33,963 nt of DNA, from the NCBI GenBank assembly GCA_017505405.1, contig JAFVPI010000073.1:1-33963 (forward strand). Direction: 5' to 3'. The notes below the pieces were generated by a model. The model was given only the letters and a program-made list of their open reading frames with translations. It was not told the origin of the DNA and ran no database searches. The position numbers and the translations under genes are program-made. Each line of letters starts with the position of its first letter. Within the stretch, counting starts at the first letter, position 1. Positions 2,781-33,871 of this stretch are shown one piece after another. Source of the DNA: Mogibacterium sp. GTDB taxonomy: Bacteria > Bacillota > Clostridia > Peptostreptococcales > Anaerovoracaceae.

Positions 2781-2827
2781 TAACCTGTTCCTCCTGAAAT
2801 TTTTGATTTATGTTAGTTTTTTATGGC

Positions 2828-3868: not shown

Positions 3869-3937
3869 TATCTGCCCCCATTAATAAAATCTGTCAGATC
3901 TTCCTGAAAAGCTGACACTTTATTATATCGCAAGCAG

Positions 3938-3966: not shown

Positions 3967-3978
3967 TTCCAAACCCTG

Positions 3979-5736: not shown

Positions 5737-5761
5737 ATAGCCTTTCTTCCTCCCCTTTGTT

Positions 5762-5890: not shown

Positions 5891-5894
5891 CTTA

Positions 5895-5924
5895 ATTATC
5901 ACACAAAATGCTCTGGGTTGTCTA
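5895..5924 (-). promoter_or_regulatory. Promoter of the Na/Pi cotransporter gene
   Basis: On the minus strand TAGACA (5924-5919) and GATAAT (5900-5895) are separated by 18 bp. The expected start near 5888 falls at the first base pairs of the aptamer P1 helix, so promoter and riboswitch support each other. Confidence 0.55.
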
Positions 5925-5937
5925 CACTTTATATGTG

Positions 5938-7092: not shown

Positions 7093-7140
7093 GTTTTCTC
7101 CCCTCATTTCAATTATTACATATTGTATTCAGCGCGGAAA

Positions 7141-11383: not shown

Positions 11384-11496
11384 GGTTAATTTATCTAGCT
11401 ACCTTCCTTTAACTACCCGGGATTCCCTCTTGTAAAAAAAGATCGGAGCGCCGGATTGTGCGTTTCGCTGCATATCGAATGCCAGTCGCCGGAATG

Positions 11497-11530
11497 AAAA
11501 GCCGGGCTGCTATAAAACAGGCAGCCCGGC
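11497..11530 (-). terminator. GC-rich hairpin between icd and citC
   Basis: On the minus strand GCCGGGCTGC and GCAGCCCGGC (11530-11521 with 11510-11501) form a perfect 10-bp stem with a 10-nt loop, followed by TTTT. It sits 11 bp past the icd stop. With only four T residues it probably terminates partially, or protects the 3' end of the aconitase-citDEF-icd transcript. This would lower expression of citC, citXG and the regulator. Confidence 0.6.
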
Positions 11531-11541
11531 GCTTGACGTTT

Positions 11542-12750: not shown

Positions 12751-12777
12751 TTTTTCTCCTTATTTATCTCCTGGTCT

Positions 12778-14328: not shown

Positions 14329-14329
14329 T

Positions 14330-15232: not shown

Positions 15233-15528
15233 TTTATCATACCTCCCCAGTTGATCCTGCCTTCGTGCTCAGCAGCACGCATAACGGCACACTCCACTCT
15301 GGCCTTGATGGTGCAGTCAAGAGCGCCCTTGTCGACTATGCTTACTCTGGCATTGCGCACCCCAAGACGCTTCAGGGTCGCAAGTGCAACCTTTCTTATC
15401 TGTCTTCCGTACTGCCTTATTACAGCACTTTCGAGTTCGAGCTCTATGCCTTTTTTTGCCGGCTCGACCGTGACCATGCAGTCGCTGCTCTCAAGAGTTC
15501 CTGCAACTGCGGTTTTTTTGATTTCCAT
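15229..15528 (-). CDS. citD: Citrate lyase gamma subunit (acyl carrier protein)
   Basis: The 99-residue protein begins MEIKKTAVAGTLESSD, nearly the E. coli CitD N-terminus (AVAGTLESGD). Ser14 is therefore the expected attachment site of the phosphoribosyl-dephospho-CoA arm made by CitXG. A conserved DKGALDCTIKARVECAV lies in the C-terminal half. GGGAGG precedes the ATG, and the gene starts 21 bp after the hydratase stop. Confidence 0.95.
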   Translation of the reverse strand: MEIKKTAVAGTLESSDCMVTVEPAKKGIELELESAVIRQYGRQIRKVALATLKRLGVRNARVSIVDKGALDCTIKARVECAVMRAAEHEGRINWGGMIK

Positions 15529-15549
15529 GGCATTCCTCCCGGTAAATCC

Positions 15550-17793: not shown

Positions 17794-17867
17794 TGTTTCC
17801 TTCCTTTCCTGAAACAATAAGGTTTCCAACGATTTCCGGAAGCGTGAAAAGGCTTCCCTGCACTTTG

Positions 17868-20980: not shown

Positions 20981-22687
20981 CTATTCTTTAGCGGCTGCCT
21001 TAAGTGCTGCTAAGACGTCTTCAATGTTATCCATTGCCATGACCTTCTCTGCAAGCGCGTCAGCCTCGGCTTTTGACCATTTTGAAATAATGGAGCGAGC
21101 CGTGAGAACAAGCACAGGGTTTACGCTGTACTCGTCAAGTCCGAAGGACATGAGCAGCGGGATCATGAGAGGATCCGCAGCTGCCTCTCCGCACATTCCT
21201 ACAGGTATTCCAGCTTCCTTTGCGGCTGCTATGATCTGTCTGATCGAGCGGAGTACCGCCGGCTGAAATGCTGAGTACAGATAAGCAACCTTCGCGTTGC
21301 CTCTGTCTACTGCCATTGTGTAACCTGTAAGGTCGTTTGTTCCGATTGAGAAGAAGTCTGCCTCTTTGGCGAGGAGATCAGCGATAGCAGCAGATGCCGC
21401 TGTCTCTGTCATGCATCCGACCTCGATACCCTCGTCGAACGGGATTCCCTCCTTGCGGAGATCGTCCTTGATCTCAGCGACGAGCTTCTTGACCGCCCTT
21501 ACCTCATCGACTGTGGTAACGAGAGGCACCATTATCTTAGCCTTGCCGAAAGCGCTGGCTCTTGTTATTGCGCGGAGCTGCACCTTGTACATGTCCGGAT
21601 TGGCGAGGCAGTACCTGACAGCTCTGAATCCGAGGAACGGATTCTCCTCTTTCTCGAAGTCCATGTAAGGGATGTCCTTGTCACCGCCGATATCCAGTGT
21701 ACGGATGATGACAGTCTTGCCCTGCATGGTCTCGAGTGCTTCCTTATATGCTTCAAACTGCTCTTCTTCGGTAGGGAGATGCGTGTTGTCCATGAACAGG
21801 AACTCCGAACGGAACAGGCCGACGCCTTCTCCGTCGCATTCCATGGCTTTCTTTGCATCCTTAGGTGTACCGATGTTGCAGAAGATCTCAAGCTTATCTC
21901 CATCAGCAGTCAGTGTATCCTTGCCAATGAATTTCTTCAGTTCTTCTCTCTTCTTGATGAACTCTTCGCGCTTGTCGACATATTTTGCAAGGACATCTCC
22001 TTCAGGATTGATGAATACATCACCGGCGGTGCCGTCTACGATGGCTGCATCCTTGTCTTCGACCAGGTCTACGATTCCAGGCACCGATAATACGGCCGGG
22101 ATCTCGAGAGCTCTTGCGAGAATTGCGGAGTGAGAAGTAGGGCCTCCGACCTCTGTAATGATTCCGACAACATTCTCTTTTACTATCTGTGATGTCATGG
22201 ATGGTGTCAGATCCTTGCAGACGAGCACGGTTCCCTTAGGGACCTTGCTGATCTCGATATCCTTGACGTCGAGAAGTTTTTTGAGGATGCTCACCTTGAC
22301 GTCTGCGATGTCTGATGCTCTCTGCTTCATCATCTCATCATCCATAGTGGAAAATATGCCGTAGAACATGTCGCAGACACCTGTAAGCGCAGCTTCAGCG
22401 CACTGTCCGGCATCTATCATGCTGAACATCTCACCCGACATTGACGGGTCGGAGATCATGACTGCATGTCCTAAAAGGATCTCTGATTCTTTTTCACCGA
22501 TGTTTTTCTTAACATCTTCAGCCATTGCGTATGTTTCTTCTACGAAGTCATCTATGGCCTTCTGGAAACGGGCTTTCTCTGCAGCTACATCCGAGACCAT
22601 CTTTGCTTCAAAAGAAAGATCCTGCTCTATTATGCGGCAGATGCTGCCGATTCCGATTCCGCGCGACGCTGCAATTCCTTTGTACAT
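20981..22687 (-). CDS. ptsI: PTS Enzyme I (PEP-protein phosphotransferase)
   Basis: Enzyme I autophosphorylates with PEP and passes the phosphate to HPr. The 568-residue sequence has the phosphorylated His186 in GGPTSHSAILARALEIP, the LFRSEFLFM and TLDIGGDKD motifs of the PEP-binding barrel, FFSIGTNDLTGYTMAVDRGN, and the conserved cysteine in GIPVGMCGEAA. Length and order of domains are normal. GGAGG stands 7 nt before the ATG. It is the last gene of a minus-strand run that starts with the glucitol-type EII genes, so the general and substrate-specific PTS parts are probably co-expressed. Confidence 0.95.
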   Translation of the reverse strand: MYKGIAASRGIGIGSICRIIEQDLSFEAKMVSDVAAEKARFQKAIDDFVEETYAMAEDVKKNIGEKESEILLGHAVMISDPSMSGEMFSMIDAGQCAEAALTGVCDMFYGIFSTMDDEMMKQRASDIADVKVSILKKLLDVKDIEISKVPKGTVLVCKDLTPSMTSQIVKENVVGIITEVGGPTSHSAILARALEIPAVLSVPGIVDLVEDKDAAIVDGTAGDVFINPEGDVLAKYVDKREEFIKKREELKKFIGKDTLTADGDKLEIFCNIGTPKDAKKAMECDGEGVGLFRSEFLFMDNTHLPTEEEQFEAYKEALETMQGKTVIIRTLDIGGDKDIPYMDFEKEENPFLGFRAVRYCLANPDMYKVQLRAITRASAFGKAKIMVPLVTTVDEVRAVKKLVAEIKDDLRKEGIPFDEGIEVGCMTETAASAAIADLLAKEADFFSIGTNDLTGYTMAVDRGNAKVAYLYSAFQPAVLRSIRQIIAAAKEAGIPVGMCGEAAADPLMIPLLMSFGLDEYSVNPVLVLTARSIISKWSKAEADALAEKVMAMDNIEDVLAALKAAAKE

Positions 22688-22709
22688 TTTTATTCCTCCG
22701 TTAATAAAT

Positions 22710-22736
22710 GCTCCCCTGCAAAAACTGCAGGGGAGC
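22710..22736 (-). other. Strong hairpin between ptsH and ptsI
   Basis: GCTCCCCTGCA and TGCAGGGGAGC form a perfect 11-bp stem around 5 nt. On the minus strand the bases after it are ATTTATTAAC rather than a T run. It therefore more likely stabilises the ptsH mRNA 3' end, or reduces ptsI expression, than acts as a full terminator. Confidence 0.6.
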
Positions 22737-22755
22737 AGAGAAGATTTACTTATAA

Positions 22756-23019
22756 TCAGTCTCCCATTCCAGAATCGATGAATGCTGTGATCTCAGCGAG
22801 AGCAGCTTCTTCATCCGGACCGTCGCAAACGACTTCGATCTGCGAACCGCACTTAATGAGCGCGGTCATCAGAAGCATAACGCTCTTGGCGTTGAAGTCC
22901 TTACCGTTGTGCTTAACGATGATATTGCTCTGGTACTTAGCTGCCATCTGGGAAAGAAGGCTTGCCGGACGCATGTGCATTCCCAGTTCATTATTGATTG
23001 TGAATTCTTTTGATACCAT
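22756..23019 (-). CDS. ptsH: HPr phosphocarrier protein
   Basis: The 87-residue protein has the active-site His15 in NELGMHMRPASLL and Ser46 in FNAKSVMLLMTA, the regulatory site of HPr kinase in Bacillota. It carries phosphate from Enzyme I to EIIA. The active-site loop reads GMHMRPA instead of the usual GLHARPA, an uncommon change of the residue after His. It is 32 bp downstream of the HAD gene and 68 bp upstream of ptsI. Confidence 0.94.
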   Translation of the reverse strand: MVSKEFTINNELGMHMRPASLLSQMAAKYQSNIIVKHNGKDFNAKSVMLLMTALIKCGSQIEVVCDGPDEEAALAEITAFIDSGMGD

Positions 23020-23051
23020 AATAAATCTCCTTGACTACTTATCAGTTTGAG

Positions 23052-23732
23052 TTATACCGACTCCCTGCAGACTAATTTTACAACATCTGCAGGTGTCTCG
23101 GCAAGATATGTTGCACCGGCATTGATTAATTCCTGCCGGTCACCATATCCGTAGAGAACGCCGATGGATCTGATACCTGCTTCGCCGGCGCCTTCCATGT
23201 CAAACATGCGGTCACCGACCATTACAGTACGTTCCACCTGAAAATGATCTGTTCTGGTTGTTGCCAGAAAACTAAGTGCTTTCTTAAGCAGTGAGCCTTT
23301 ATCGGTCTTCTTATCTTCTCGAGCCGGCCCTATGACTGCCTGAAAATACTGGTCTATTCCTGTGTGGTTTAAAACGATTTCAGCCATATCCCGGGGCTTG
23401 GCTGTCACAACAAGAAGTATTCTGCCTGCATTCCGAAGCGCTTCGAGCATCTGCACCACTCCTTCGTAGACAGAGGCGTTATATATACCTTCTCTGTCGT
23501 AGAATTCGGTAAAATACGCATTTGCCCGATCCGCTTCTTCCGCACTCATATTGTAGAATTTCTGAAAAGACTCCCACAGTACCGGACCGATCATTCTCTT
23601 CATATCTTTACGATCCCCCGGATCGACCCCCGACTTCTCCAACGCATAGGTTATTGAGTCGTAAAGTCCTTCCTCAGACTTGATAAGTGTTCCGTCCAGG
23701 TCAAAAATGATGTACTGGTAAAGCGCCTCCAT
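23052..23732 (-). CDS. HAD-superfamily phosphatase (phosphoglycolate phosphatase-like)
   Basis: The 226-residue protein has the HAD motifs: DLDGTLIKSEEG (nucleophile Asp11, acid Asp13), LLVVTAKP (motif II), a lysine in the KKTDKGSLL region, and VMVGDRMFDMEGAGEAG (motif IV). The cap is of the Gph/PGP subtype. It sits between the EII genes and ptsH on the same strand. This suggests dephosphorylation of a sugar or polyol phosphate, perhaps to relieve accumulation, but the substrate is not determined. Confidence 0.85.
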   Translation of the reverse strand: MEALYQYIIFDLDGTLIKSEEGLYDSITYALEKSGVDPGDRKDMKRMIGPVLWESFQKFYNMSAEEADRANAYFTEFYDREGIYNASVYEGVVQMLEALRNAGRILLVVTAKPRDMAEIVLNHTGIDQYFQAVIGPAREDKKTDKGSLLKKALSFLATTRTDHFQVERTVMVGDRMFDMEGAGEAGIRSIGVLYGYGDRQELINAGATYLAETPADVVKLVCRESV

Positions 23733-23751
23733 TCTTCTCTTCCTTTTTTAC

Positions 23752-23788
23752 AAATCTGACCCATGGAACGGATCCATGGATCAGATTT
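23752..23788. other. Long inverted repeat between srlE and the HAD gene
   Basis: AAATCTGACCCATGGA and TCCATGGATCAGATTT pair with one mismatch around ACGGA. On the minus strand no T run follows, so it is an imperfect terminator or an RNA-stability element at the end of the EII mRNA. It begins only 8 bp after the srlE stop. Confidence 0.6.
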
Positions 23789-23795
23789 CTTTTGA

Positions 23796-24809
23796 TTAGT
23801 ACAGACCTACGCTGAAAGCAAATGCGATCAGAACTGCCAGAGGACCTGTTACGATACGCGAGAACAGAACTGCAGGAACGCCGTACTCGATTGTTTCAGG
23901 CTCAGCCTCTCCGAGGGAAAGACCTACCGGTACGAAGTCAGCACCGACCTGACCGTCAATAGCGAACAGAGCCGGGAGAGCATACTTCGCAGGGATAGCA
24001 CCTGTAGCGAACTGCGCGCCGAGGAGTGTACCTACGATCTGAGCGATTACAGCTCCAGGTCCGAGGATCGGTGACAGGAACGGCAGCGAGCAGATGATAC
24101 ATATTACCAGCATGCCCGGAAGGGTTCCGCACAGAGGAGCGATCGTGTTAGCGATTACGTTACCAAGTCCGCTCGCACTGATGATACCGAGGATCGTACT
24201 TGTGAATGCCATGAACGGCAGGATGTTCTTGATGACCATGTCGATGGTCTCACGGCCTGCCTGGAAGAACTGGCCTACTACGTAGCCGACGCCCTTACCG
24301 AGACGAACTACGAAGCCCTGCTTCTTTCCTTCATTAGCTGCTGCGATTTCAGCCTTAGCCTCAGCCTTTGTCTTAGGTCCCTTGTCAACAGCAGGTGCTG
24401 CAGCTGCTGCAGCTGCCGGTGCTGCGGCCTCAGCCGGAGCATCGTCTATTACCTCGATGTTCTTTTCGCGTACAGCGGAGACATAGATATCTTCTGTGAT
24501 AAACATCGCCAGAGGGCCGGCCTTTCCTGCCGGCATAAGGTTTACTGTATTGATTCCCTTCTTAGGATAAACGCCGCATCTTGCTGTTCCGCCGCAGTCT
24601 ACTACTGCAACCATGATCTCGTCATCAGGAAGGGTTGTTTTCCAGCCATCTACCGCTTCACCGCCTGTGAGCTCAGCGATCTTTGCTGCTACAGGGTGGA
24701 TCCCTCCGCCGGTTACGCTGAGAACTGTATGGCACTTTTCGGTTGGTGTAATTATGAGAGGGCCGCCCCAGCCGCCGTCTCCATGGCAGATTTTAACCTT
24801 TTTATACAT
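23796..24809 (-). CDS. srlE: PTS glucitol-family EIIB domain fused to C2 membrane domain (SrlE type)
   Basis: Residues 1-122 are the glucitol-type EIIB domain with the DCGGTARCGVYPKKG motif; Cys72 or Cys78 is the phosphorylated residue. An Ala/Pro/Lys-rich linker follows (about 123-165). A membrane domain of about 165 residues comes next, with LPFMAFTSTILGIISASGLG, PFLSPILGPGAVIAQ and DGQVGADFVPVGLSLGEAEP, typical of the SrlE C-terminal half. The protein phosphorylates and, with EIIC, imports a polyol. The family is named for sorbitol, but the neighbouring enzymes suggest another substrate. The EIIB portion is nearly identical to the separate gene just upstream. Confidence 0.92.
   Translation of the reverse strand: MYKKVKICHGDGGWGGPLIITPTEKCHTVLSVTGGGIHPVAAKIAELTGGEAVDGWKTTLPDDEIMVAVVDCGGTARCGVYPKKGINTVNLMPAGKAGPLAMFITEDIYVSAVREKNIEVIDDAPAEAAAPAAAAAAAPAVDKGPKTKAEAKAEIAAANEGKKQGFVVRLGKGVGYVVGQFFQAGRETIDMVIKNILPFMAFTSTILGIISASGLGNVIANTIAPLCGTLPGMLVICIICSLPFLSPILGPGAVIAQIVGTLLGAQFATGAIPAKYALPALFAIDGQVGADFVPVGLSLGEAEPETIEYGVPAVLFSRIVTGPLAVLIAFAFSVGLY
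24440..24809 (-). repeat. Direct repeat copy 1 (EIIB coding segment of srlE)
   Basis: This 370-bp segment aligns without gaps with 24853-25222; both end at an ATG start codon and are offset by exactly 413 bp. Many third positions are identical, for example the shared stretch CGATGTTCTTTTCGCGTACA. The duplication is therefore recent or kept uniform by gene conversion. Confidence 0.9.
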
Positions 24810-24826
24810 TATCTTTCCTCCCCTCT

Positions 24827-25222
24827 CTACTGGATATTCTCAGTGAGAAGATCATCGTCTATTGCCTCGATGTTCTTTTCGCGTACAGCGGAGACATAGT
24901 TATCTTCTGTGATGAAATTTGCCAGGGGGCCGGCCTTTCCTACCGGCATAAGGTTTACTGTATTGATCCCCTTCTTAGGATAAACGCCGCATCTTACTGT
25001 TCCGCCGCAGTCTACTACTGCAACCATGATCTCGTCATCAGGAATGGTTGTCTTCCAGCCGTCTACCGCTTCACCGCCTGTGAGCTCAGCGATCTTTGTT
25101 GCTACAGGGTGGATCCCTCCGCCGGTTACGCTAAGAACTGTATGGCACTTTTCGGTTGGTGTAATTGTAAGAGGGCCGCCCCAGCCGCCTTCTCCAGCAC
25201 TGATTTTAATTGTCTTATACAT
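24827..25222 (-). CDS. Free-standing PTS glucitol-family EIIB domain (tandem duplicate)
   Basis: This 131-residue protein is the EIIB domain alone, with the same DCGGTVRCGVYPKKG motif. It matches the first about 124 residues of the following srlE at all but about 14 positions (about 89 percent). It ends with a short unrelated tail (LLTENIQ) where srlE continues into the linker and membrane domain. It has its own ribosome binding site and lies 16 bp after srlA and 17 bp before srlE. Both cysteines are retained, so it may be active as a second phosphate carrier or a dosage copy. Confidence 0.9.
   Translation of the reverse strand: MYKTIKISAGEGGWGGPLTITPTEKCHTVLSVTGGGIHPVATKIAELTGGEAVDGWKTTIPDDEIMVAVVDCGGTVRCGVYPKKGINTVNLMPVGKAGPLANFITEDNYVSAVREKNIEAIDDDLLTENIQ
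24853..25222 (-). repeat. Direct repeat copy 2 (free-standing EIIB gene)
   Basis: This is the partner of the 24440-24809 repeat. Identity breaks off at the distal end, near residue 124 of both proteins, marking the edge of the duplicated block. Confidence 0.9.
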
Positions 25223-25238
25223 GATTTTTCTCCTCTCA

Positions 25239-25754
25239 CTATTTATTTCTTGTCATAAATGCATAGATTCTCTCTGTAAGCAGCCCTCTGATAAGAATGA
25301 CTATGAGTCCGACAATGAAATAACGGACTGCAAGGCCTCCTGTGCTGAGGCCTGCTTCCTGCAGACCTGTAGCGATACCGAGGTATACGAACAGCTCACC
25401 GGCGTTTGCATGTGGGAAGAGCCCTGTAACCGGATGTACAAAGCTTACTGCTGCATCATAGTAAGCAGGTTTATACTTTTCTTCCAGGAACCGTCCGAAT
25501 GTGTAGCACATCGGATTTCCGAGGAAGAAAACTGCCATGAGAGGGAGCAGTGTATATCTGAGGACAGCAAACCTGGTAATCTTTTTGGCAAAGTTTTCTA
25601 CCTTTTCAGTACCGATCAGCTTGATGATAGAGTTGACAAATGTCATCAGGCATACAACCATAGGGATGATTCCTGACACCCAACCCATGAAGGTCTCGCC
25701 GCCGGCAGTGAACAGTGACATAAAGCCCTCTGCCAGTTTGGTTATAAGTTCCAT
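25239..25754 (-). CDS. srlA: PTS glucitol-family EIIC membrane subunit
   Basis: The 171-residue membrane protein corresponds to SrlA/GutA. It starts MELITKLAEGFMSLFTAGGE and has FFLGNPMCYTFGRFLEEKYKPAYYDA and the HPVTGLFPHANAGE segment, plus about four hydrophobic helices. It forms the polyol channel with the membrane half of SrlE. The ATG has AGGAGG upstream. It is followed by the free-standing EIIB gene. Confidence 0.93.
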   Translation of the reverse strand: MELITKLAEGFMSLFTAGGETFMGWVSGIIPMVVCLMTFVNSIIKLIGTEKVENFAKKITRFAVLRYTLLPLMAVFFLGNPMCYTFGRFLEEKYKPAYYDAAVSFVHPVTGLFPHANAGELFVYLGIATGLQEAGLSTGGLAVRYFIVGLIVILIRGLLTERIYAFMTRNK

Positions 25755-25820
25755 ATAGTTCCTCCATTCGAATTATTTTTGTCTCCATTTAGCATGGATC
25801 CAGCTTTTTTATATATGTAA

Positions 25821-25860
25821 CACCGGTTCCCGCAATTCTGCCACAGCTGCCATCCCGGTG
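25821..25860. other. Inverted repeat between gutM and srlA
   Basis: CACCGG (25821-25826) and CCGGTG (25855-25860) are complementary around a 28-nt loop. No T run follows on the minus strand. It may be a weak processing or stability element; the rest of the 120-bp gap shows nothing else. Confidence 0.3.
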
Positions 25861-25874
25861 GTTCATATCTGTAT

Positions 25875-26348
25875 TTACCTGAGTTTCTTTCCCTTTTTGC
25901 CTCTTTTTGTTTCCATGAAAGCTTCCTGCTCTCTTGTCAGCTCTCTGTCAGTAAGCCTTACCTCCAGAGCTTCCAGCGCACGGATGTATCCCTGCCAGCG
26001 CTTCCACTCTTTTTTATCCAGATCTTCCGTCAGTTTGAGCAGCTCGAAAATGCTGCTGCCTACCAAAGGCCGCCCCAGAAATGAGCTTACAGGATGAAAA
26101 CGTGACCACACACCGGATCCATCGAGCACCTCAGCGCCGGTGATGATCCCATCGCTGTCACAGGCAATAATGGCAACATGACCATCAAAAAACTTACCGC
26201 GCCTCTGCCCCATGCCGACGTTCCCCAGCTGGTGCACCCTGCGCACTGCTTTTCGATAGTTCTGGATCTACAGGACTCCGCCAATCGACTGCAAAACAAG
26301 CAAACCGAATATTATTAGAATCAGAACGGATATCCCGCTAAGCTTCAT
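25875..26348 (-). pseudogene. gutM: gutM-like operon activator interrupted by an in-frame amber codon
   Basis: A continuous frame from the ATG at 26348 (GGGAG 9 nt upstream) encodes a membrane anchor, MKLSGISVLILIIFGLLVLQ. It then meets TAG as codon 27 (26268-26270) and continues without a frame change as IQNYRKAVRRVHQLG and NVGMGQRRGKFFDGHVAII to the normal end, 158 codons in all. The downstream part matches GutM/SrlM (E. coli RVGVGRSSGRFKPRVVVAI). The stop lies where GutM proteins often have Gln (GGWQ in E. coli), so a single CAG to TAG change explains it. GutM relatives are membrane-anchored co-activators of glucitol PTS operons. The remaining reading frame could restart at a GTG (26246), but would lack the anchor. 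TAG is used as a normal stop in citE, so reassignment is unlikely. Confidence 0.75.
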
Positions 26349-26389
26349 TGATCAATTCTCCCGCTAAGTCCTATTTTCCTAATGTTAGC

Positions 26390-26418
26390 ATTGTATCTTC
26401 AATTACTATTATTATCAA
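26390..26418 (-). promoter_or_regulatory. Promoter of the gutM-srlA-srlE-ptsHI run
   Basis: On the minus strand TTGATA (26418-26413) and TACAAT (26395-26390) are separated by exactly 17 bp, giving a start near 26383, 35 bp before the gutM ATG. Confidence 0.55.
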
Positions 26419-26636
26419 GGACTATGTTCTGACCAAATGCCTGATTTAATACATTTTTATTATTGTCAGCGCATTTTGTTCTAATGTTAATATTAACGCA
26501 AATCATCTATACATTTGCATAAAACAATCTCATCCCATAATAGTTCCGCCGGATCAATTGCACATTTCAAAGCAAATTCGCTGTTGTCGCATTCCTTATG
26601 AGAATTTCAACGTAAGAAAATTTTACGCAATTGTTC

Positions 26637-26665
26637 TTGATATATGTTGAAATATTAACTAAGAT
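26637..26665 (+). promoter_or_regulatory. Promoter of the isomerase-yjbQ-aldolase operon
   Basis: TTGATA (26637-26642) and TAAGAT (26660-26665) are 17 bp apart. The motif ACGCAATTGTT (26625-26635) directly abuts the -35 element, which suits control by the SorC-type regulator. Confidence 0.5.
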
Positions 26666-26726
26666 GAATTCGTAAAATGAGCTTACTATATATTTTGAAA
26701 ATATAAAAAAAGAGAGGAACCGCTCC

Positions 26727-27422
26727 ATGGTAAAAGCTGAACGTCCATTCCTGATCGTTAATCCAAAATCCTATCTCTATGGGCAGAAGAGTCTGGAACT
26801 CGCCATGGCTGCTGACAGGACTGCTGCTGAGACAGGCCTTCAGATTTATTTCACATGTCCTTATGCTGACATCAGGTTGATCCGACAGAACACCAGCCAC
26901 ATTATCGTCTGCGCGCAGTCTCTCGATCCGCTTACACCCGGCCGCGGAATGGGACACGTTCTTCCCGAATCACTTAAGGAAGCCGGAGCAGACGCGGTTT
27001 TCCTCAATCACGCTGAGAACCCTAAGACTGTTGCAGAGCTGAGTGCCTGTATTGAGCGCGCAAAAGATCTTGAGATGATCACTATAGTATGCGCTGACAG
27101 CACAAAGGAAGCTGCCGCTGCTGCCTGCCTCGATGCAGACATCGTGCTTGCTGAACCTACAGATCTGATCGGAACAGGAAAGACTGCCGACGATTCATAC
27201 GTAACAGAAACGGTAGCTGCACTCCACAAGGTAAACCCGGACGTGCTGGTCATGATCGCATCCGGCGTTGTTACAGCTGATGATTGCTATAATGTAGTAA
27301 GACTCGGCGCTGACGGAACCGGTGCGACCTCCGGTATCCTTAACGCTCCATCACCGGCTGTACGCGTACAGGAAATGGCAGAGGCTATTGTAAAAGCATA
27401 TAAGGAAAGAGAAGGAAAATAA
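26727..27422 (+). CDS. Triosephosphate isomerase homologue, archaeal-type, probably a sugar-phosphate isomerase
   Basis: The 231-residue protein has the TIM active-site set: Asn12 and Lys14 (VNPKSY), His95 (VFLNHAENP) and Glu143 (LAEPTDLIGTG). Its length and the PLTPGRGMGHVLPESLKEAG and EPTDLIGTG segments are like archaeal TIMs and unlike the about 250-residue bacterial TpiA. The usual phosphate-binding GCGAGI-type segment is replaced by IASGVV, followed by GADGTGATSGIL. This points to a shifted substrate. TIM relatives are known to isomerise other ketose phosphates, for example L-erythrulose 1-phosphate in erythritol catabolism. It is the first gene of a three-gene plus-strand operon and shares one base with yjbQ (TAATG). 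Confidence 0.8.
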   Translation: MVKAERPFLIVNPKSYLYGQKSLELAMAADRTAAETGLQIYFTCPYADIRLIRQNTSHIIVCAQSLDPLTPGRGMGHVLPESLKEAGADAVFLNHAENPKTVAELSACIERAKDLEMITIVCADSTKEAAAAACLDADIVLAEPTDLIGTGKTADDSYVTETVAALHKVNPDVLVMIASGVVTADDCYNVVRLGADGTGATSGILNAPSPAVRVQEMAEAIVKAYKEREGK

Positions 27423-27952
27423 TGAAGGTTTACAAAGAACAGATCGACCTGAGATCTCACGGAGGAACTCCTACTTTTATAAATATAACACCGGAAGTAA
27501 AGCAGGCCATCGCAAACAGCGGTATCCGGAGCGGAATCGTAACTATCATTTCCCCTCATACAACATGTTCGGTGTTCTTTGAAGAATTCGTTCACGACCT
27601 TACTGAAGACGGAACAGAATTTCTGCAGATGGATCTGAACGATGCGCTCTGCAAAATCATTCCGGATCAGACTGAGATCCCACCCGCCGGGCCTTACATG
27701 TACCCGGGTCCTGAGCATTATGCCGACGTAGCTTCATGGCCTGATGCTGAGGTTTACCTGCCGGGCGGTGATAAGACAGCCCTTCTCAACTGCGATGCAC
27801 ACATAAAGGCTACTCTTCTCGGCAACAGTGCTACACTGGAAGTCGAAGACGGAAAACTCGCAGTCGGTACAACCGGTTACGTTTACTTCGTAGACTTTGA
27901 CAGAACAAGAGAACGAGGCAGAAGATGCAGAGTCATCGTAATGGGTGAATAA
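27422..27952 (+). CDS. YjbQ/UPF0047-family protein
   Basis: The 176-residue protein contains the UPF0047 signature residues: SPHTTCSVFFEE, HDLTEDG, and the conserved NCDAHIKATLLGNSATLE. It ends with YVYFVDFDRTRERGRRC. The family is called secondary thiamine-phosphate synthase because E. coli YjbQ shows weak activity of that kind; its real roles are mostly unknown. This member is about 40 residues longer than the usual about 135-140, with the extra length around ADVASWPDAEVYLPGGD. Sandwiched with TAATG coupling between an isomerase and an aldolase, it is likely to act on a sugar phosphate here, which is inference. Confidence 0.82.
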   Translation: MKVYKEQIDLRSHGGTPTFINITPEVKQAIANSGIRSGIVTIISPHTTCSVFFEEFVHDLTEDGTEFLQMDLNDALCKIIPDQTEIPPAGPYMYPGPEHYADVASWPDAEVYLPGGDKTALLNCDAHIKATLLGNSATLEVEDGKLAVGTTGYVYFVDFDRTRERGRRCRVIVMGE

Positions 27953-27976
27953 ACAAATTACAGGGAGGATATAGAA

Positions 27977-28807
27977 ATGCTTGTTAATTCGAAAATTTTG
28001 CTGAAGAAGGCACAGGAAGGCCATTACGCGATCCCGTCTGCAAATGTTATTGACATGGAGAGCATAAAGAATCAGATACAGCTGGCAGAGAAGCTCGGAC
28101 TCCCTTTGATCGCAGCCGTCGCTGAGAGCCATCTTGGCAGCAGCATCAGCCTTGAGGACGCTGCACTGGTAGGCAGAAAGTATGCTGCTGAAGCAAGCGT
28201 CCCTGTAGTTTTGCATCTCGACCACGGTCAGAGCTTTGAGACATGCAAAAGAGCCATCGACCTCGGATTCACTTCCGTCATGATAGATGCTTCCATGAAG
28301 AGCTTTGAAGAGAACGTTGAAACTACGCGCAAGGTAGTTGAGTACGCACACGCCCGCGGAGTCACGGTTGAGGCTGAGATCGGCCATGTTGCCAGCAACT
28401 TCGATGAAAACGATCAGGAGGCTCTCTATACGACTGCAGAGGAAGCTTCTGCATTTGCTGAACAGTCCGGATGCGACTCACTTGCTATCTCGATCGGTAC
28501 CGCTCACGGTGTTTATAAGGCTAAGGCGATTCCTGAGATAAGCTTTGATTCACTTGCTGAGATCCGTCAGGCAACCAGCGTGCCTCTCGTACTTCACGGC
28601 GGATCCGGTTCCGGGGACGACAACCTCAGCCGCTGCGCAAAGGAAGGCATCTGCAAGATCAACATCTACACAGATATCTACCTCGCAGCAATGAAGTCTC
28701 TTGAAGAAGCGGATGCTTCAGACTACTTCAAGGTCAGAGCTGCCCTTCAGAAGGGAATGAACGACTGCCTCGGACATTACTACAGGGTGTTCGGTACACG
28801 GGCATAA
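27977..28807 (+). CDS. Class II ketose (bis)phosphate aldolase
   Basis: The 276-residue protein matches the class II FBA/tagatose-bisphosphate aldolase family. It has LHLDHGQSFETCKRAID (catalytic Asp and first zinc His), VEAEIGHVASN (Glu), GTAHGVYK (His), PLVLHGGSGSGDDNL (His) and CKINIYTDIYLA (the phosphate-binding KIN-x-x-TD stretch, with Tyr where fructose-bisphosphate aldolases often have Asp). It cleaves a ketose phosphate to DHAP and an aldehyde. No sugar-phosphate kinase is present in the locus, so a ketose 1-phosphate is as plausible as a bisphosphate. GGGAGG precedes the ATG by 8 nt. Confidence 0.9.
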   Translation: MLVNSKILLKKAQEGHYAIPSANVIDMESIKNQIQLAEKLGLPLIAAVAESHLGSSISLEDAALVGRKYAAEASVPVVLHLDHGQSFETCKRAIDLGFTSVMIDASMKSFEENVETTRKVVEYAHARGVTVEAEIGHVASNFDENDQEALYTTAEEASAFAEQSGCDSLAISIGTAHGVYKAKAIPEISFDSLAEIRQATSVPLVLHGGSGSGDDNLSRCAKEGICKINIYTDIYLAAMKSLEEADASDYFKVRAALQKGMNDCLGHYYRVFGTRA

Positions 28808-28822
28808 GTCTGCAGAATCATA

Positions 28823-28900
28823 GCAGAAATACAAAACGGCGGAAGTCCGGTATGGACATGCCGCCGATTTTAGTTACTTTTTGTATTTTATGATTTCTGC
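28823..28900. terminator. Compound terminator between the aldolase gene and the sorC-type gene
   Basis: An inner hairpin CGGCGG...CCGCCG (28837-28866) contains a second GTCC/GGAC pair and is followed on the plus strand by ATTTTAGTTACTTTTT. Outer arms GCAGAAATACAAAA and TTTTGTAT...ATTTCTGC extend it into a long dyad. This serves the two convergent genes. Confidence 0.75.
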
Positions 28901-28909
28901 CTGTACAGG

Positions 28910-29893
28910 CTACTGCAGCTTTGCCAGTTCGATGAGCTTTCTGGCGCATTCCGTATCTGTAATAAGGATATTCAGATAACCGCCGCGTATCGCACCAATC
29001 ACAGCTTCCGCTTTTCTCGCGCTGCCGGCTATGCCGATCTTGCTTGGTATCCTGCGTATGTCCTTAAGGCGCATTGCAGCCACGCGGTCATTATAGAAAC
29101 TGAATTGATCCGTATTGCCGTCACGGTCGTAGAACTGCAGGCACATATCTCCTACAGCTCCGCGATCTACCAGCATTTCGCGCTCATCAGATGTCATATA
29201 TCCGGCTTTAGCCAGAGTATGCTCATTTCCGTCCGGTACGCCTATTCCTACGAGGACCACATTGAGATGCCTGAATTCGTCAAGGATATAATTAACTGCC
29301 TTTTCCTTCATGAAAAAATCCAGGACGCTGCTTTCGGAGAACACTGCCGGTGAAAGGAACTGGGTGTAGGTTCCGCCGAACTTTTCTGCAAATTTTCTTG
29401 CAAGTTCATTTCCCTGCACGTCCGTGCCGCCTTTGGTGTTGCGGCTGATACTTCCCTCCAGAGCTACAAAACGGAGATCTTTGTGCTTTTCATAGGTTTT
29501 GTTGGTGCTGACTACGTTGTTCAGCGTGTTGCCCATCGCAACACCTATCCTGTCACCCTCTTTAAAAAAGCTTTGCAGGTAGTCTGATGCCGTTCCGAAC
29601 ATGTATGATGCGGCTTCTGTTCTGGAGTCAAGCACGCTGTTTTCGACTATCAGGACATCCTTGAGCCCATATGCCCTTTCAAGAGTTTTTTCCATTTCGC
29701 CATAGTCATAAAAGCGCGGGTTGTGCAGTTCAATTGTAACGATGCCCAGCTCACGGCCTTTCTGAAGCATGCGCAGTACGGAGGATCTGGACACACCCAG
29801 ATAATCTCCTACCTCCTGCTGGTTCATATTATCCTGATAGTACAGGCTGCAGACCTTGTAGATCAGCCGCTCATCATCTACGATTTTTTTCAT
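28910..29893 (-). CDS. SorC-family sugar-binding transcriptional regulator
   Basis: The 327-residue protein has an N-terminal helix-turn-helix (YYQDNMNQQEVGDYLGVSRSSVLRMLQKGRELG). The SorC/DeoR-type sugar-phosphate binding domain follows, with IGVAMGNTLNNVVS, ALEGSISRNTKGGTDVQGNELARKFA, VLVGIGVPDG, GAVGDMCLQFYDRDG and GIAGSARKAEAVIGAIRGGYLNILITD. SorC regulators respond to phosphorylated sugars. It lies between the two plus-strand parts of the pathway and is transcribed away from EIIA. A perfect palindrome (29942-29964) is just upstream of its start. Confidence 0.9.
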   Translation of the reverse strand: MKKIVDDERLIYKVCSLYYQDNMNQQEVGDYLGVSRSSVLRMLQKGRELGIVTIELHNPRFYDYGEMEKTLERAYGLKDVLIVENSVLDSRTEAASYMFGTASDYLQSFFKEGDRIGVAMGNTLNNVVSTNKTYEKHKDLRFVALEGSISRNTKGGTDVQGNELARKFAEKFGGTYTQFLSPAVFSESSVLDFFMKEKAVNYILDEFRHLNVVLVGIGVPDGNEHTLAKAGYMTSDEREMLVDRGAVGDMCLQFYDRDGNTDQFSFYNDRVAAMRLKDIRRIPSKIGIAGSARKAEAVIGAIRGGYLNILITDTECARKLIELAKLQ

Positions 29894-29941
29894 CTTAAGA
29901 CACCATTTTCAAGCATGTTGCATAATTGTTACAAATATATA

Positions 29942-29964
29942 CACGCAATTGTTTTAATTGCGTG
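29942..29964. promoter_or_regulatory. Perfect palindrome, candidate SorC-type operator
   Basis: CACGCAATT and AATTGCGTG are perfect 9-bp inverted arms around GTTTT. The left arm and spacer contain ACGCAATTGTT, also found at 26625-26635 before the isomerase operon. Related ACGCAA half-sites occur at 26496, 30026-30034 (reverse) and 30159. Confidence 0.6.
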
Positions 29965-30106
29965 CTCATTATACAGAAGCCCTTTATCAAATGCAACTAT
30001 TTCCAGTTAACTGCAAACAATAATCATTGCGTTATTTTGATAAATCATCTGATTAAGCAGCTATGAACAAGAATCATGTTTCACTCAAATGTTCTGAACA
30101 GTAAGC

Positions 30107-30135
30107 TTGAAGTCGGGTAATTCAGGACATATAAT
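30107..30135 (+). promoter_or_regulatory. Promoter of the EIIA-oxidoreductase operon
   Basis: TTGAAG (30107-30112) and a consensus TATAAT (30130-30135) are 17 bp apart. The predicted start is near 30142, and ACGCAAATGGTT (30159-30170) lies in the leader, where a repressor could act. Confidence 0.6.
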
Positions 30136-30185
30136 ACTCAGTGTCAAGAGATGTTTATACGCAAATGGTTAAAAGGAGGTCTCCC

Positions 30186-30557
30186 ATGAAATATGATGTT
30201 ATCGTTACGGGAATCGGAGATATGGCATTTGCATTCCTCGATCCGGAGATGGAGATGAGATTCGTCGTTCTGTTTGACGACAATGCACCGGCAGAACTGG
30301 CGGAGCTTGCTCTCCTGCATACAAAGGGAGCGCTGACAGAGGCACCTGCCCCTGGCGATACCATGAAGATCGGTGAGAAGACTTACAAGGTCACAGCTGT
30401 AGGCGACGAGGCAATTCACACTCTCGCAACACTGGGACACTGCACTCTTGCGTTTACTGCAGATACAGAACCTTATCGTCCGGGCTGCATCAATCTGGAC
30501 GGCGAGGTTATCACCGAGGCAGATGTTGCTGAGGGAACTGTCATTCAGATCTTCTGA
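30186..30557 (+). CDS. srlB: PTS glucitol-family EIIA
   Basis: The 123-residue protein matches the glucitol EIIA family. It has the phospho-accepting His45 in LALLHTKGAL, then GDTMKIGEKTYKVTAVGDEA, LATLGHCTLAF and GTVIQIF. It receives phosphate from HPr and passes it to EIIB. Although the frame is open from 30141, GGAGG stands 6 nt before the ATG at 30186, and family proteins begin there. It is separated from the EIIB/EIIC genes by about 5 kb and paired with the oxidoreductase, so its expression can be set independently. Confidence 0.92.
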   Translation: MKYDVIVTGIGDMAFAFLDPEMEMRFVVLFDDNAPAELAELALLHTKGALTEAPAPGDTMKIGEKTYKVTAVGDEAIHTLATLGHCTLAFTADTEPYRPGCINLDGEVITEADVAEGTVIQIF

Positions 30558-30616
30558 TTATCTGCTGAAAACATTATAAATAAAAGCATATGACCACCAA
30601 GGAGGAATAACCTATT

Positions 30617-31936
30617 ATGCTTAACATGAACTGGAAACTGGAACAGAGGGAAAAAGAAGGAAAGATCATCAAAGTCGGTATCGTGGGAGCCGGACAGATG
30701 GGCCGCGGAATGGTTACACAGATGGTTCTCATGAAGGGAATGACACCTGCGATCGTATCCGATATCAACGTCTCTCTCGCAGTACAGGCTTTCAAATATG
30801 CAGAGGTTACTGACGATGAGATCGTTGTTGCAAAGTCTCTCGATGAAGCAAACGCAGGAATCGCAGCCGGCAAGTACGTAGCATGCGGTGATGCGGCTTT
30901 CGTTTCCGCAGCAGATGGCGTCGACGCCGTTATCGACTGCACAGGAGTTCCTGATGTAGGCGCAAAGGTTGCTACAGACGCTATGAAGAACGGCAAGCAC
31001 GTAGTAATGCTCAACGTTGAGACAGACGTTGTTATCGGACCTTACCTCGACAAGTTCGCTAAGGATCACGGCGTAATCTACACAGGTTCCGCTGGTGACG
31101 AGCCGGGCGCTGTAATGGAGCTCTACTGCTTCGCAAAGGCTATGGGCCTCAACGTAGAAGTAATGGGCAAGGGCAAGAACAACAAGCTCGACTATGAGTG
31201 CAACCCTGACACAGTACTCGAAGAGGCTACACGCCGCAAGATGAGCCCGAGAATGCTCTGCGCTTTCAAGGACGGCACAAAGACAATGGTAGAAATGACT
31301 GCTATGTGCAACTACACAGGACTTATTCCTGACGTAATCGGCGGACACGGCCCTGCAACAGCTCCTGGAACAGAGGGCGTTAAGCAGCTCAACGAGATCT
31401 TCAAACTGAAGAAAGACGGCGGAATCCTCAACAAGCACGGCGTAGTTGAGTATGTAAACGGAATCGCTCCTGGCGTATTCGTAACAGTTTCCACAGACAA
31501 CGCTGAGATCGCTTATCAGCTGCAGTACCACAGCATGGGTCCTGGACCACTCTGGACACTCTACAGACCATATCACCTCTGCAACCTCGAGACACCGCTC
31601 ACAGTTGCCAAGGCTGTTATCGACGGAGAGAAGACATGCGTAGCTAAGGACGGACTCGTTGCTGAGTGCATCACAAGAGCTAAGATCGACCTCAAGGCTG
31701 GTCAGAACCTCGACGGAATCGGCGGATACACAACACTCGGATCGATCTGCACAGAGGCAGAGGCAACAGAGAAGGGTTATGTACCATTCGGCCTGATCAA
31801 CAAAAACGCTGTTATGAAGGTTGACTGCAAGAAGGGCGACCTCATCACATACGACATGGTTGAGCTCGACAAGAACACTCTGATCTACAAGCTCAGAAAA
31901 GAGCAGGATGCTATGTACGGAAAGCACGTTCTGTAA
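30617..31936 (+). CDS. NAD(P)-dependent oxidoreductase with C-terminal SAF domain (COG4091 type)
   Basis: The 439-residue protein has a Rossmann fold from residue 16 (KVGIVGAGQMGRGMVTQ), a homoserine-dehydrogenase-like middle (GVDAVIDCTGVPDVGAKV, TGSAGDEPGAVMELY, GKGKNNKLDYECNPD) and a SAF-type C-terminus (AKIDLKAGQNLDGIGGYTTLG, KKGDLITYDMVEL). Members of this family are often called predicted homoserine dehydrogenases, but lie in sugar operons and have no agreed substrate. Following EIIA, it most likely oxidises the polyol phosphate produced by the PTS. AAGGAGG stands 11 nt before the ATG. Codon use is very regular (ACA for Thr, CTC for Leu), consistent with high expression. Confidence 0.8.
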   Translation: MLNMNWKLEQREKEGKIIKVGIVGAGQMGRGMVTQMVLMKGMTPAIVSDINVSLAVQAFKYAEVTDDEIVVAKSLDEANAGIAAGKYVACGDAAFVSAADGVDAVIDCTGVPDVGAKVATDAMKNGKHVVMLNVETDVVIGPYLDKFAKDHGVIYTGSAGDEPGAVMELYCFAKAMGLNVEVMGKGKNNKLDYECNPDTVLEEATRRKMSPRMLCAFKDGTKTMVEMTAMCNYTGLIPDVIGGHGPATAPGTEGVKQLNEIFKLKKDGGILNKHGVVEYVNGIAPGVFVTVSTDNAEIAYQLQYHSMGPGPLWTLYRPYHLCNLETPLTVAKAVIDGEKTCVAKDGLVAECITRAKIDLKAGQNLDGIGGYTTLGSICTEAEATEKGYVPFGLINKNAVMKVDCKKGDLITYDMVELDKNTLIYKLRKEQDAMYGKHVL

Positions 31937-32440: not shown

Positions 32441-33871
32441 CTAATACAGAGGTTCCGCAAGCCCAAAGTTTTCCTCATTAATCGCCTTTGCGCGCTTGAT
32501 CGCATCCGGCAGGACTTTCAGAAGATAGTCCACTTCTTCTTCCGTATTGTAGATCCCAAAGCTTACACGGATCATTCCCGGTGTGTTTACATCGGAGCAT
32601 TCCGCAAAGTTTCTGACCTGCTCATCAGTCAGCCCATAAAATCTCCAGACATATGGATTTGCACAGAACGCGCCTCTTCTGGTTGCTATTGCGTATTGCT
32701 GTGACAGCTGTTCCGCCAGAAGATGTGAGTTGCAGTCACTGAAGTTGAACGATATGACGCCGACACGGTCGCTCAGATCCTCAGAATCTCCGTAGACTAT
32801 CACGTTATCCATCTTCAGAAGTCCGTCGACCAGTCTCTGGTTCAGAGCCTTCTCATGTGCCTCGATATTGTCAAATCCGACTTCCTCAAGAATGTCTATT
32901 GCCTTGCCCAGTCCTATGACACCCGGATAGTTCGGTGAACCGGCTTCGTAACTCTTTGGTGCATCCGCATACTCTACCCAGTCATCCCCTACGATATAGA
33001 TCGTGCCGCCGCCATAGAATTTAGGCATGTGGCCGCTCAAAGCTTCACTCAGACCGACTACTGCGCCGCCGCCATATGGCGAATACATTTTGTGTGCAGA
33101 GAATACGAAGAAATCGATATTCTCGTCTTCGGTCTCACCAAGCATTGAGAACTTTCTGTGCGCAACGATCTGGGCACCGTCAACGATGATCTTTGCGCCG
33201 TACTTATGCGCAAGCTTTGCTACCCTGTGCACGTCTGTAACATAGCCGGTTACATTTGAAGCCGCTGTCACGGATACGTATTTGACCTTGTTTTTCTTGA
33301 GCTGCTTCTCGATCTCATCGTACATAACACGCCCTTGATCATCTACTTCAGCATAGATGACCGTACCGTTTTCACGCCACGGGAGATCGTTTGAATGATG
33401 TTCCATGCGTGTCGTGAGGACGACATCGCTCTTTTTCTCAATAAGCGCTGATGCCAGTTTATTCAGGCCGTCCGTGGTATTGTTGACATAAAAGACAGTA
33501 TACGTCTCCGGATCTGCTCCTACAAAATCAATGATCTTATCTTTTGTAGAATTGTACAGATCCGTCGAATAGTCCGACTTAGGCGAAAAGCCTCTGCCGA
33601 TCGAGCCGTACTTCTTGAGCTCTTCCTCTACTTCATCAGCGACAGGCTGAAGCGCCGGCGTGGTTGCAGCATTATCAAAATTCGTAACAGTTTTCTTGCT
33701 GCCGTTCTCTAGCTCCATCTCCTCATCGATGCCGACAACATAATCCCTGATGTTGTCCATCGTGTAGCCCTTGTCCCCCTCCGGGGCTGCACTCTTACCG
33801 CAGGCGCTGAGCATGCTGATGCTCAGAGTCAGGACAATTATCCCGGCCAGCCATTTTTTCATCTTTTTCAT
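32441..33871 (-). CDS. Lipoprotein PLP enzyme of the cysteine desulfurase/aminotransferase class V fold
   Basis: Residues 1-24 form a lipoprotein signal: a basic N-terminus (MKKMKKW), a hydrophobic core and the lipobox LSAC with lipidated Cys24. The mature part is a full class V enzyme. It has FDNAATTP, MEHHSNDLPW (His158/159), ASNVTGYVTDV, IIVDGAQIVAH (Asp231, Gln234), the PLP-binding Lys261 in FSAHKMYSPYGGG, and RRGAFCANP, where Cys403 aligns with the catalytic cysteine of SufS-type desulfurases. The predicted location is the outer face of the membrane, unusual for a PLP enzyme. The reaction could be cysteine desulfuration or another beta-elimination, but is not proven. GGGAG stands 6 nt before the ATG. 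Confidence 0.85.
   Translation of the reverse strand: MKKMKKWLAGIIVLTLSISMLSACGKSAAPEGDKGYTMDNIRDYVVGIDEEMELENGSKKTVTNFDNAATTPALQPVADEVEEELKKYGSIGRGFSPKSDYSTDLYNSTKDKIIDFVGADPETYTVFYVNNTTDGLNKLASALIEKKSDVVLTTRMEHHSNDLPWRENGTVIYAEVDDQGRVMYDEIEKQLKKNKVKYVSVTAASNVTGYVTDVHRVAKLAHKYGAKIIVDGAQIVAHRKFSMLGETEDENIDFFVFSAHKMYSPYGGGAVVGLSEALSGHMPKFYGGGTIYIVGDDWVEYADAPKSYEAGSPNYPGVIGLGKAIDILEEVGFDNIEAHEKALNQRLVDGLLKMDNVIVYGDSEDLSDRVGVISFNFSDCNSHLLAEQLSQQYAIATRRGAFCANPYVWRFYGLTDEQVRNFAECSDVNTPGMIRVSFGIYNTEEEVDYLLKVLPDAIKRAKAINEENFGLAEPLY

Follow-up and report, generated by a model that had tools for sequence, protein, structure and literature searches.

The DXR-II or DRL enzymes of Brucella and others (PDB 3upl, 3upy) are type II DXP reductoisomerases with a biosynthetic role, converting DXP to 2-C-methylerythritol 4-phosphate (MEP), and MEP production has been reported for 11 members of the family (PMC3847144). 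The same source describes K191, K193, T229 and R320 as DXR-II residues, with T229 replaced in the DLO families, gives the SAF domain as common to most DXR-II proteins, and sets out a puzzle, namely that this second, unrelated reductoisomerase is kept by bacteria that possess DXR-I or lack the MEP pathway. Close to the present locus on its transport side is the srl/gut operon for sorbitol, in which EIIA, EIIBC, EIIC and GutM accompany a sorbitol-6-phosphate dehydrogenase. Homologues of triosephosphate isomerase (TIM) also function in the erythritol and threitol pathways (EryH/LerI), where a second TIM serves for a carbonyl shift in polyol catabolism.

Here we describe a gene cluster from Mogibacterium sp., lying in a window (the whole stretch of DNA analysed) of 33,963 nucleotides, that joins elements of all three. 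We consider it somewhat probable (roughly 0.55) that the cluster serves for the uptake and breakdown of 2-C-methyl-D-erythritol (ME). A search of open-licence papers found, among the matches listed, neither a catabolic DXR-II nor a pathway of ME utilisation, in keeping with the view of the initial annotation that a PTS-fed polyol pathway of this kind is apparently undescribed.

A glucitol-type PTS cluster with a DXR-II homologue

Family profile searches recovered every gene of the initial annotation in its place (Table 1), and the PTS part of the cluster was found to reach further to the left, on the minus strand (20981-26348). The GutM frame is interrupted, and open copies of 153-174 aa occur in seven relatives. 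Behind the regulator gap follow EIIA, which probably starts at an ATG near 30186, and the DRL gene, both on the same strand and separated by 59 bp.

Table 1. Features of the cluster, with the profile or structure matches on which each assignment rests
Feature	Position	Strand	Basis
PTS enzyme I (PtsI)	20981..22687	-	Pfam PEP-utilizers N, mobile and C domains
HAD-family phosphatase	23052..23732	-	Pfam HAD_2; relative also at L104 and L105
Glucitol-type PTS EIIBC (SrlE)	23796..24809	-	NF049924 473 bits (cut-off 400); Pfam
N-terminal EIIB piece of glucitol PTS, duplicated	24827..25222	-	PF03612 positions 1-121/184
Glucitol-type PTS EIIC (SrlA)	25239..25754	-	PF03608 260 bits; NF049923
GutM frame	25875..26348	-	PF06923 on 25875-26246; interrupted by in-frame TAG 26268-26270
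Gap holding two copies of ACGCAA (candidate sites for SorC)	26490..26640		Motif search
Archaeal-type triosephosphate isomerase homologue	26727..27422	+	NF003302 177 bits (cut-off 132); 1hg3 152 bits
YjbQ/UPF0047 protein, long form	27422..27952	+	PF01894; TIGR00149
Class II (DHAP-type) aldolase	27977..28807	+	PF01116 299 bits
SorC/DeoR-type regulator with sugar-binding domain	28910..29893	-	PF04198 203 bits
Inverted repeat ACGCAATT-N5-AATTGCGT, candidate operator	29943..29963		Between regulator and EIIA-DRL
Glucitol-type PTS EIIA	30141..30557	+	PF03829 97 bits
DRL / DXR-II type DXP reductoisomerase homologue	30617..31936	+	PF21135 DRL_cat 205 bits; 3upl 323 bits

Sequence comparison identifies the product of the gene initially annotated as a COG4091-type SAF oxidoreductase as a homologue of type II DXP reductoisomerases, in the Brucella 3upl family. 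It shares the DRL_cat domain, its alignment to 3upl spans residues 8-436 of 439 and is thus near full-length, and the substrate-binding residues K191, K193, T229, H250, R320 and Y322 (Brucella numbering) are present, as are both family markers, G121 and H250. The Pfam SAF domain gave no match at E 0.001, and the 3upl alignment still runs through residue 436. The 3upl match and the conserved DXR-II residues led us to reject the generic polyol-phosphate dehydrogenase that had been proposed for this gene. This identity points to 2-C-methylerythritol and DXP as the substrate pair in place of an undefined tetritol or deoxy polyol; of the substrates suggested at the outset, the branched polyol fits best. 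Whereas the described DXR-II enzymes are biosynthetic, the present one is embedded in a PTS cluster and is predicted to run also in reverse.

The regulator would sense a phosphorylated intermediate. ACGCAA motifs had been thought to be shared by the genes around it; as a motif enriched across the window this was rejected (18 copies against 15.6 expected), and what stands is a plausible local clustering, because 5 of the 18 copies, those of the inverted repeat at 29943-29963 among them, fall in two regulatory gaps, chosen after the fact (26349-26726 and 29894-30140).

DRL and glucitol PTS genes across genomes

In a phylum draw of 398 genomes, DRL was present in 26 of the 30 genomes with EII-GUT versus 39 of 398 overall (Fisher 4.6e-27, kinship ignored), and 24 of 35 EII-GUT places lay within 10 kb of a DRL gene. 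Seven of the remaining 11 EII-GUT places carried an SDR, all seven scoring above the cut-off of NF004817 (sorbitol-6-phosphate dehydrogenase), and four had neither DRL nor SDR. The 44 DRL places of the draw (a split frame in G080 counted once) gave 40 loci, four genomes contributing two each; the places not used were the window's own, those of G213 and G080, and a weak third one in G298. Glucitol PTS genes were missing from the vicinity of 13 of these 40 loci. A second set, the best 80 of at least 562 confirmed relatives ranked by similarity to the window DRL protein, includes six loci whose contigs are, judged by length, those of draw loci (L131, L136, L161, L162, L165, L173); a glucitol EII gene was found in 43 of the 52 named loci of 14 kb or more, the other 28 of the 80 being shorter than 14 kb. 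Genes in relatives were called as mechanical ORFs and scored with profiles built from the same loci at cut-offs that we set, and family names were library-checked for single representatives. Other partners seen at some DRL loci were an FGGY kinase (Pfam in L052), a zinc alcohol dehydrogenase and a SIS domain (Pfam in L046; like genes occur in both L046 and L052), and an FSA-like aldolase at 12/40 draw and 4/80 named loci.

A sorbitol operon of the usual kind in which the dehydrogenase has been exchanged would account for EII and GutM genes that match glucitol systems, and is highly improbable. No sorbitol-6-phosphate dehydrogenase gene was found in the cluster, and the best candidate in the genome (95% complete) reached 121 bits against the NF004817 cut-off of 304; the cluster differs from srl/gut operons also in its SorC regulator and in having DRL in the dehydrogenase's place. 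The absence of this gene and the doubt about sorbitol, both voiced at the outset, are thus borne out by genomic evidence, since the SDR missing here occupies the DRL slot at other EII-GUT places. Across 120 DRL loci the best NF004817 relative scored 123 bits. Seven DRL genomes do possess an NF004817 enzyme (G174, G176, G201, G244, G339, G341 and G381), which in G244 and G339 lies at a second glucitol PTS separate from the DRL-linked one, and in G201 at the only EII-GUT of the genome. To our knowledge sorbitol 6-phosphate is, moreover, not a DXR-type substrate.

Two putative ends of a proposed ME pathway

From the genes, their co-location, residue conservation and genome content we infer the substrate, the direction of every reaction and the TIM and YjbQ steps of the following route. 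The glucitol-type PTS would take up ME as MEP (the sorbitol PTS of Salmonella is said, in work attributed to Testa in 2004, to accept ME as a substrate), and DRL would convert MEP to DXP in reverse. The DXR equilibrium favours MEP, and reverse flux therefore needs efficient removal of DXP. In the window, the TIM-like protein and YjbQ may shift the DXP carbonyl from C2 towards C4 to give a 5-deoxy-pentulose 1-phosphate, which the class II aldolase would split into DHAP and acetaldehyde; an endpoint of DHAP plus an aldehyde, as had been suggested, seems sensible.

K14, H95 and E143 are kept in the TIM homologue (33 aligned copies), and the aldolase retains D82, H83, H177 and H207 (30 aligned copies). 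In an alignment of 35 YjbQ copies, H46, C49, E55, H58, H99 and H127 each reach a conservation of 93% or more. We know of no isomerase activity for YjbQ. A bacterial-type TIM (310 bits) on another contig of the same genome rules out the TIM-like gene as the only TIM, so that here, too, a TIM homologue stands beside the housekeeping enzyme, as in the erythritol and threitol pathways. The window differs from these in its pairing of an archaeal-type TIM with YjbQ, and in an end formed by an aldolase rather than RpiB and without a kinase; among the cluster genes scanned with Pfam, neither a polyol/tetrulose kinase nor an RpiB family was found.

The trio of TIM, YjbQ and aldolase recurs with DRL at 3/40 draw and 20/80 named loci (the latter including a TIM-YjbQ pair without aldolase at L181), which fall into distinct branches of the DRL tree, and L133, L144 and L160 carry only one of TIM and YjbQ. 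That tree has 94 rows (loci below 10 kb, six repeats and near-identical sequences being excluded), scores a module missing from a short contig as absent, and contains the Brucella enzyme (3upl core) as its sole functionally tested entry, whose long branch is only weakly placed. DRL does not always accompany the trio: 8 of 12 genomes with an archaeal-type TIM gave no DRL match, and in four of the eight the trio adjoins a galactitol-type PTS, the arrangement of L094-L097, whose genomes lack a DRL match and for which no dehydrogenase was seen by eye in the gene lists of L096 and L097. The substrate of the trio therefore need not be DXP, and the trio could form a pathway of its own for a different sugar taken up by a PTS, merely co-regulated with the PTS and DRL, with DXP handled elsewhere. 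We regard this as unlikely, yet worth serious consideration; it would suit L068, where the trio comes with a SorC gene of its own and adjoins a DRL and PDH-like operon. Against it, the trio is repeatedly co-located with the DRL-PTS on separate branches, and the trio beside DRL and a glucitol PTS in Thermoanaerobacterium sp. (L149) closely resembles by eye that following a galactitol-type PTS at L096, an arrangement expected if both PTS types deliver the same sugar phosphate.

For the putative ME catabolism in relatives the survey suggests a second way of removing DXP. Genes for E1a and E1b of a pyruvate or acetoin dehydrogenase (PDH)-like complex were found at 16/40 draw and 9/80 named DRL loci, with glucitol EII genes at 16/16 of the draw loci, E2 at 15 and E3 at 7, and E1a lay within 300 bp of DRL at 12 of the 16. 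The module thus shares E1a and E1b with known acetoin and pyruvate dehydrogenase complexes, nearly always E2, and E3 in about half of cases, and differs from them in its predicted substrate, DXP. NCBIfam naming was checked at L037 (E1a, E1b, E2, E3) and L068 (E1a, E1b, E2), and left the E1 genes undivided between PDH and acetoin dehydrogenase. An E1b-like gene at L050, outside the 16 loci, proved by Pfam to be a transketolase half. No PDH-like module was seen within the window. Such a complex may cut DXP, an acyloin, between C2 and C3 to yield acetyl-CoA and glyceraldehyde 3-phosphate; purified PDH is reported to form 1-deoxyxylulose from pyruvate and glyceraldehyde (PMC3424233).

This recurrent module fits DXP, a methyl ketone, and not xylulose 5-phosphate, and so weighs against a different PTS substrate on whose phosphate DRL would act, for example a tetritol, or apiitol, which the same rearrangement would turn into xylulose 5-phosphate. 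A hydroxymethyl analogue could conceivably undergo DRL-type chemistry, TIM homologues belong to the erythritol and threitol pathways, and the partners of DRL differ between loci (FGGY kinase, zinc alcohol dehydrogenase, SIS domain, FSA-like aldolase). Because the DXR-II residues are conserved and the 11 reported members make MEP (PMC3847144), we nonetheless judge such a substrate improbable.

Isoprenoid synthesis and the biology of DXR-II

The window genome (G000) gave no DXR-I match and possesses IspG, which makes it probable that the same DRL works in the forward direction as well, supplying MEP for isoprenoids. A biosynthetic role is thus likely, and biosynthesis might even be the sole role, the PTS and trio serving another sugar as chance neighbours or the PTS salvaging ME for isoprenoids. 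In line with this, 6/6 relatives tested (L103, L104, L105, L109, L113, L114) lacked a DXR-I match and had IspG (of the 80 named loci, 24 had their genomes searched for DXR-I and IspG), and at L059 ispD and ispF come directly after DRL in gene order. We find an exclusively biosynthetic DRL distinctly unlikely: 12 of the 24 genomes with DRL within 10 kb of EII-GUT already possess DXR-I, and the close, co-oriented EIIA-DRL pair behind the regulator gap does not look like chance. G244, which has the PTS-DRL, both modules and HMG-CoA synthase, gave neither an IspG nor a DXR-I match, and its DRL cannot feed the MEP pathway. Salvage of ME would yield MEP directly, leaving DRL superfluous. In Brachyspira (L134) a DXR-I match was obtained and IspG was not found.

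Taken together, ME may be eaten by reversal of the entry into isoprenoid synthesis, with an amphibolic DRL in this lineage, YjbQ as a ketose-phosphate isomerase walking the carbonyl with TIM, and Bacillota DXR-II enzymes being mostly catabolic, a combination that we put forward only tentatively. A catabolic role for DRL, if true, would answer why a seemingly redundant DXR-II is kept, and many 'glucitol/sorbitol PTS' annotations in the phylum would be wrong. The YjbQ family would gain a pathway context. There would also be a biological sink for the methyl tetritol of plants and microbes, 2-methyltetrols also arising by isoprene oxidation.

The DXR-II homologue and its gene cluster

On sequence grounds, our best reading is that this cluster would degrade 2-C-methyl-D-erythritol (ME) via DXP. 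The initial annotation placed a glucitol-type PTS, an archaeal-type TIM, YjbQ, a class II aldolase and a 'SAF oxidoreductase' around one SorC gene at 26727..31936; gene calls, Pfam and NCBIfam bore out the presence of these genes, and the cluster extends further on the minus strand (see table). The oxidoreductase gene stands, but its identity has to be revised to a type II DXP reductoisomerase homologue (DRL, DXR-II), as it matched DRL_cat in Pfam (205 bits) and, among PDB sequences, 3upl and 3upy alone (323 bits), which we take to be the Brucella DXR-like enzyme, and retains K191, K193, T229 and R320 plus G121 and H250 (Brucella numbering, by alignment). In the available text of PMC3847144, 3upy is B. 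abortus DXR-II, and T229 is invariant across DXR-II; its sister families, DLO1 and DLO2, have another residue there.

The source genome (2.3 Mb, 148 contigs, 95% complete) has its closest named relatives, among the matches listed, in loci L103-L111, L113 and L123 (DRL identity 90-99% over the matched part). Most of these are MAGs under the labels Mogibacterium, Clostridiales, Lachnospiraceae, Ruminococcaceae or Eubacterium, and several come from horse, goat, roe deer or reindeer. GutM, interrupted in the window, is open in L103, L104, L108 and L113 (157-aa copies); EIIBC, partly duplicated in the window, was found only once in each of L103, L104, L105 and L113, and the L108 contig starts inside a piece resembling the duplicate. 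The window's class V aminotransferase carries, by eye, an N-terminal lipoprotein signal peptide, which suggests an exported PLP enzyme.

Features of the window and of two compared loci
Feature	Position	Strand	Evidence or remark
Aconitase X; citrate lyase parts, isocitrate dehydrogenase, aconitase	1-17829		Pfam for aconitase X, others by eye; perhaps a citrate-fermentation region
GutM, EIIC, EIIB piece, EIIBC, HAD phosphatase, PTS enzyme I	26348 to 20981	-	Pfam
GutM frame	25875-26348	-	In-frame TAG, 26268-26270
EIIBC N-terminus, partial duplicate	24827-25222	-	Adjoins full EIIBC
Archaeal-type TIM, long YjbQ, class II aldolase		+	
SorC		-	Right of aldolase
EIIA		+	After SorC
DRL	30617-31936	+	After SorC
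Class V aminotransferase	32441-33871	-	PF00266, 286 bits
DRL, then ispD and ispF	L059:8019-10718	one strand	
RpiB and glycerol-1-phosphate-dehydrogenase-like gene (Fe-ADH_2)	L150:14873-16795		Clostridium psychrophilum; between TIM/YjbQ/aldolase and glucitol PTS genes

Two kinds of glucitol-type PTS

In a phylum draw of 398 genomes, the window's own included, DRL was found in 39, the glucitol-type EII in 30 and both in 26 (Fisher 4.6e-27, kinship ignored), with 24 of 35 EII places lying within 10 kb of DRL. At the 11 EII places without DRL, an SDR exceeded the NF004817 cut-off for sorbitol-6-phosphate dehydrogenase in seven, and no SDR of this type was found at the other four. At 120 DRL loci, which share kinship and of which the 80 named ones were chosen by similarity, the top relative of such an SDR reached just 123 bits. 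This dehydrogenase, noted initially as missing from the cluster, likewise gave no match in a search of the window's genome. The NF004817 enzyme is also present in 7 DRL genomes, and in G244 and G339 it sits at a second glucitol PTS separate from the DRL cluster. Given this split between DRL-linked and SDR-linked EII, 'glucitol PTS' is, judged by gene content, of two kinds.

No glucitol PTS lies near DRL at 13 of 40 draw loci, some of which have kinases or other partners and some of which are apparently stand-alone. Both without a glucitol PTS, L046 and L052 carry an FGGY kinase, a zinc alcohol dehydrogenase and a SIS domain protein (Pfam, one representative each), together with an RpiR-type regulator by eye, a possible kinase-based version. 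In L048, L049, L051, L054 and L056, DRL accompanies an FSA-like aldolase (NCBIfam for L048), PtsI and a zinc-ribbon-like small protein (by eye); G115, G149, G226 and G298 have, in addition to the DRL of this arrangement, another copy that is PTS-linked.

Two lower modules and the predicted route through DXP

PTS uptake would deliver ME as its 4-phosphate, MEP; this is the compound that DXR-II makes, and DXR-II in reverse would yield DXP. As DXP is an acyloin, CH3-CO-CHOH-R, a PDH-like complex could cleave it to acetyl-CoA and glyceraldehyde 3-phosphate, reversing the DXS condensation. The trio of TIM, YjbQ and aldolase would move the DXP carbonyl from C2 to C3 to C4 before retro-aldol cleavage to DHAP and acetaldehyde; both modules would break the same bond, C2-C3. 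According to PMC3424233, pyruvate and glyceraldehyde are converted to 1-deoxyxylulose by purified PDH, aceE mutants make DXP, and wild-type PDH fails to rescue a dxs mutant, its product being insufficient.

E1a and E1b of pyruvate/acetoin-dehydrogenase type (family names from NCBIfam, L037 and L068) lie near DRL at 16 of 40 draw loci, with glucitol EII in 16/16, E2 in 15/16, E3 in 7/16 and E1a within 300 bp of DRL in 12/16. The trio, the window's lower module, accompanies DRL at 3/40 draw loci and 20/80 named loci (the best 80, by similarity, of at least 562 relatives), and only L068 has both modules. Mapped on the DRL tree, the trio (18 rows) takes 11 changes and the PDH module (22 rows) takes 14, of which well-supported branches force at least 8 and at least 9, respectively; each module was therefore joined to DRL, or lost, several times, although short contigs inflate such counts.

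Aligned copies retain K14, H95 and E143 of TIM (presumably catalytic), H83, H177 and H207 of the aldolase (which we take to be metal ligands) and a conserved His/Cys/Glu set in YjbQ. Archaeal-type TIM exceeded its cut-off in 12/398 genomes, YjbQ adjoining in all 12: DRL is present in four, the trio accompanies a galactitol-type PTS in another four, and in the remaining four (L093, L098, L100 and the short contig L099) no aldolase was found. SIS-domain, epimerase or FGGY kinase genes adjoin the pair in L093 and L100; in L093, L098 and L100, which lack DRL and aldolase, it would serve another pathway. Standing beside DRL or other partners, TIM and YjbQ look like a reusable pair rather than a DRL accessory, which weakens the claim that their substrate must be DXP.

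Catabolic and biosynthetic roles of DRL

DXR-I occurs in 22 of the 39 DRL genomes (12/24 of those with DRL beside the glucitol EII), IspG in 38 and HMG-CoA synthase in one. That one, G244, has PTS-linked DRL and both modules, and a search of its genome gave no IspG or DXR-I match; its DRL therefore cannot serve the MEP pathway. IspG and DXR-I were likewise unmatched in the searched genome of Virgibacillus L176. A purely catabolic DRL is argued against by the window genome and 6/6 relatives tested, in which DXR-I was not found and IspG is present; there DRL is probably the sole DXR, working in both directions. DRL upstream of ispD and ispF in L059, whose genome also has DXR-I, is a further link to MEP. 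No report of a catabolic DXR-II was found among the open-licence papers listed, and as far as those listings show the arrangement is undescribed; it is real and conserved, and its catabolic role is predicted.
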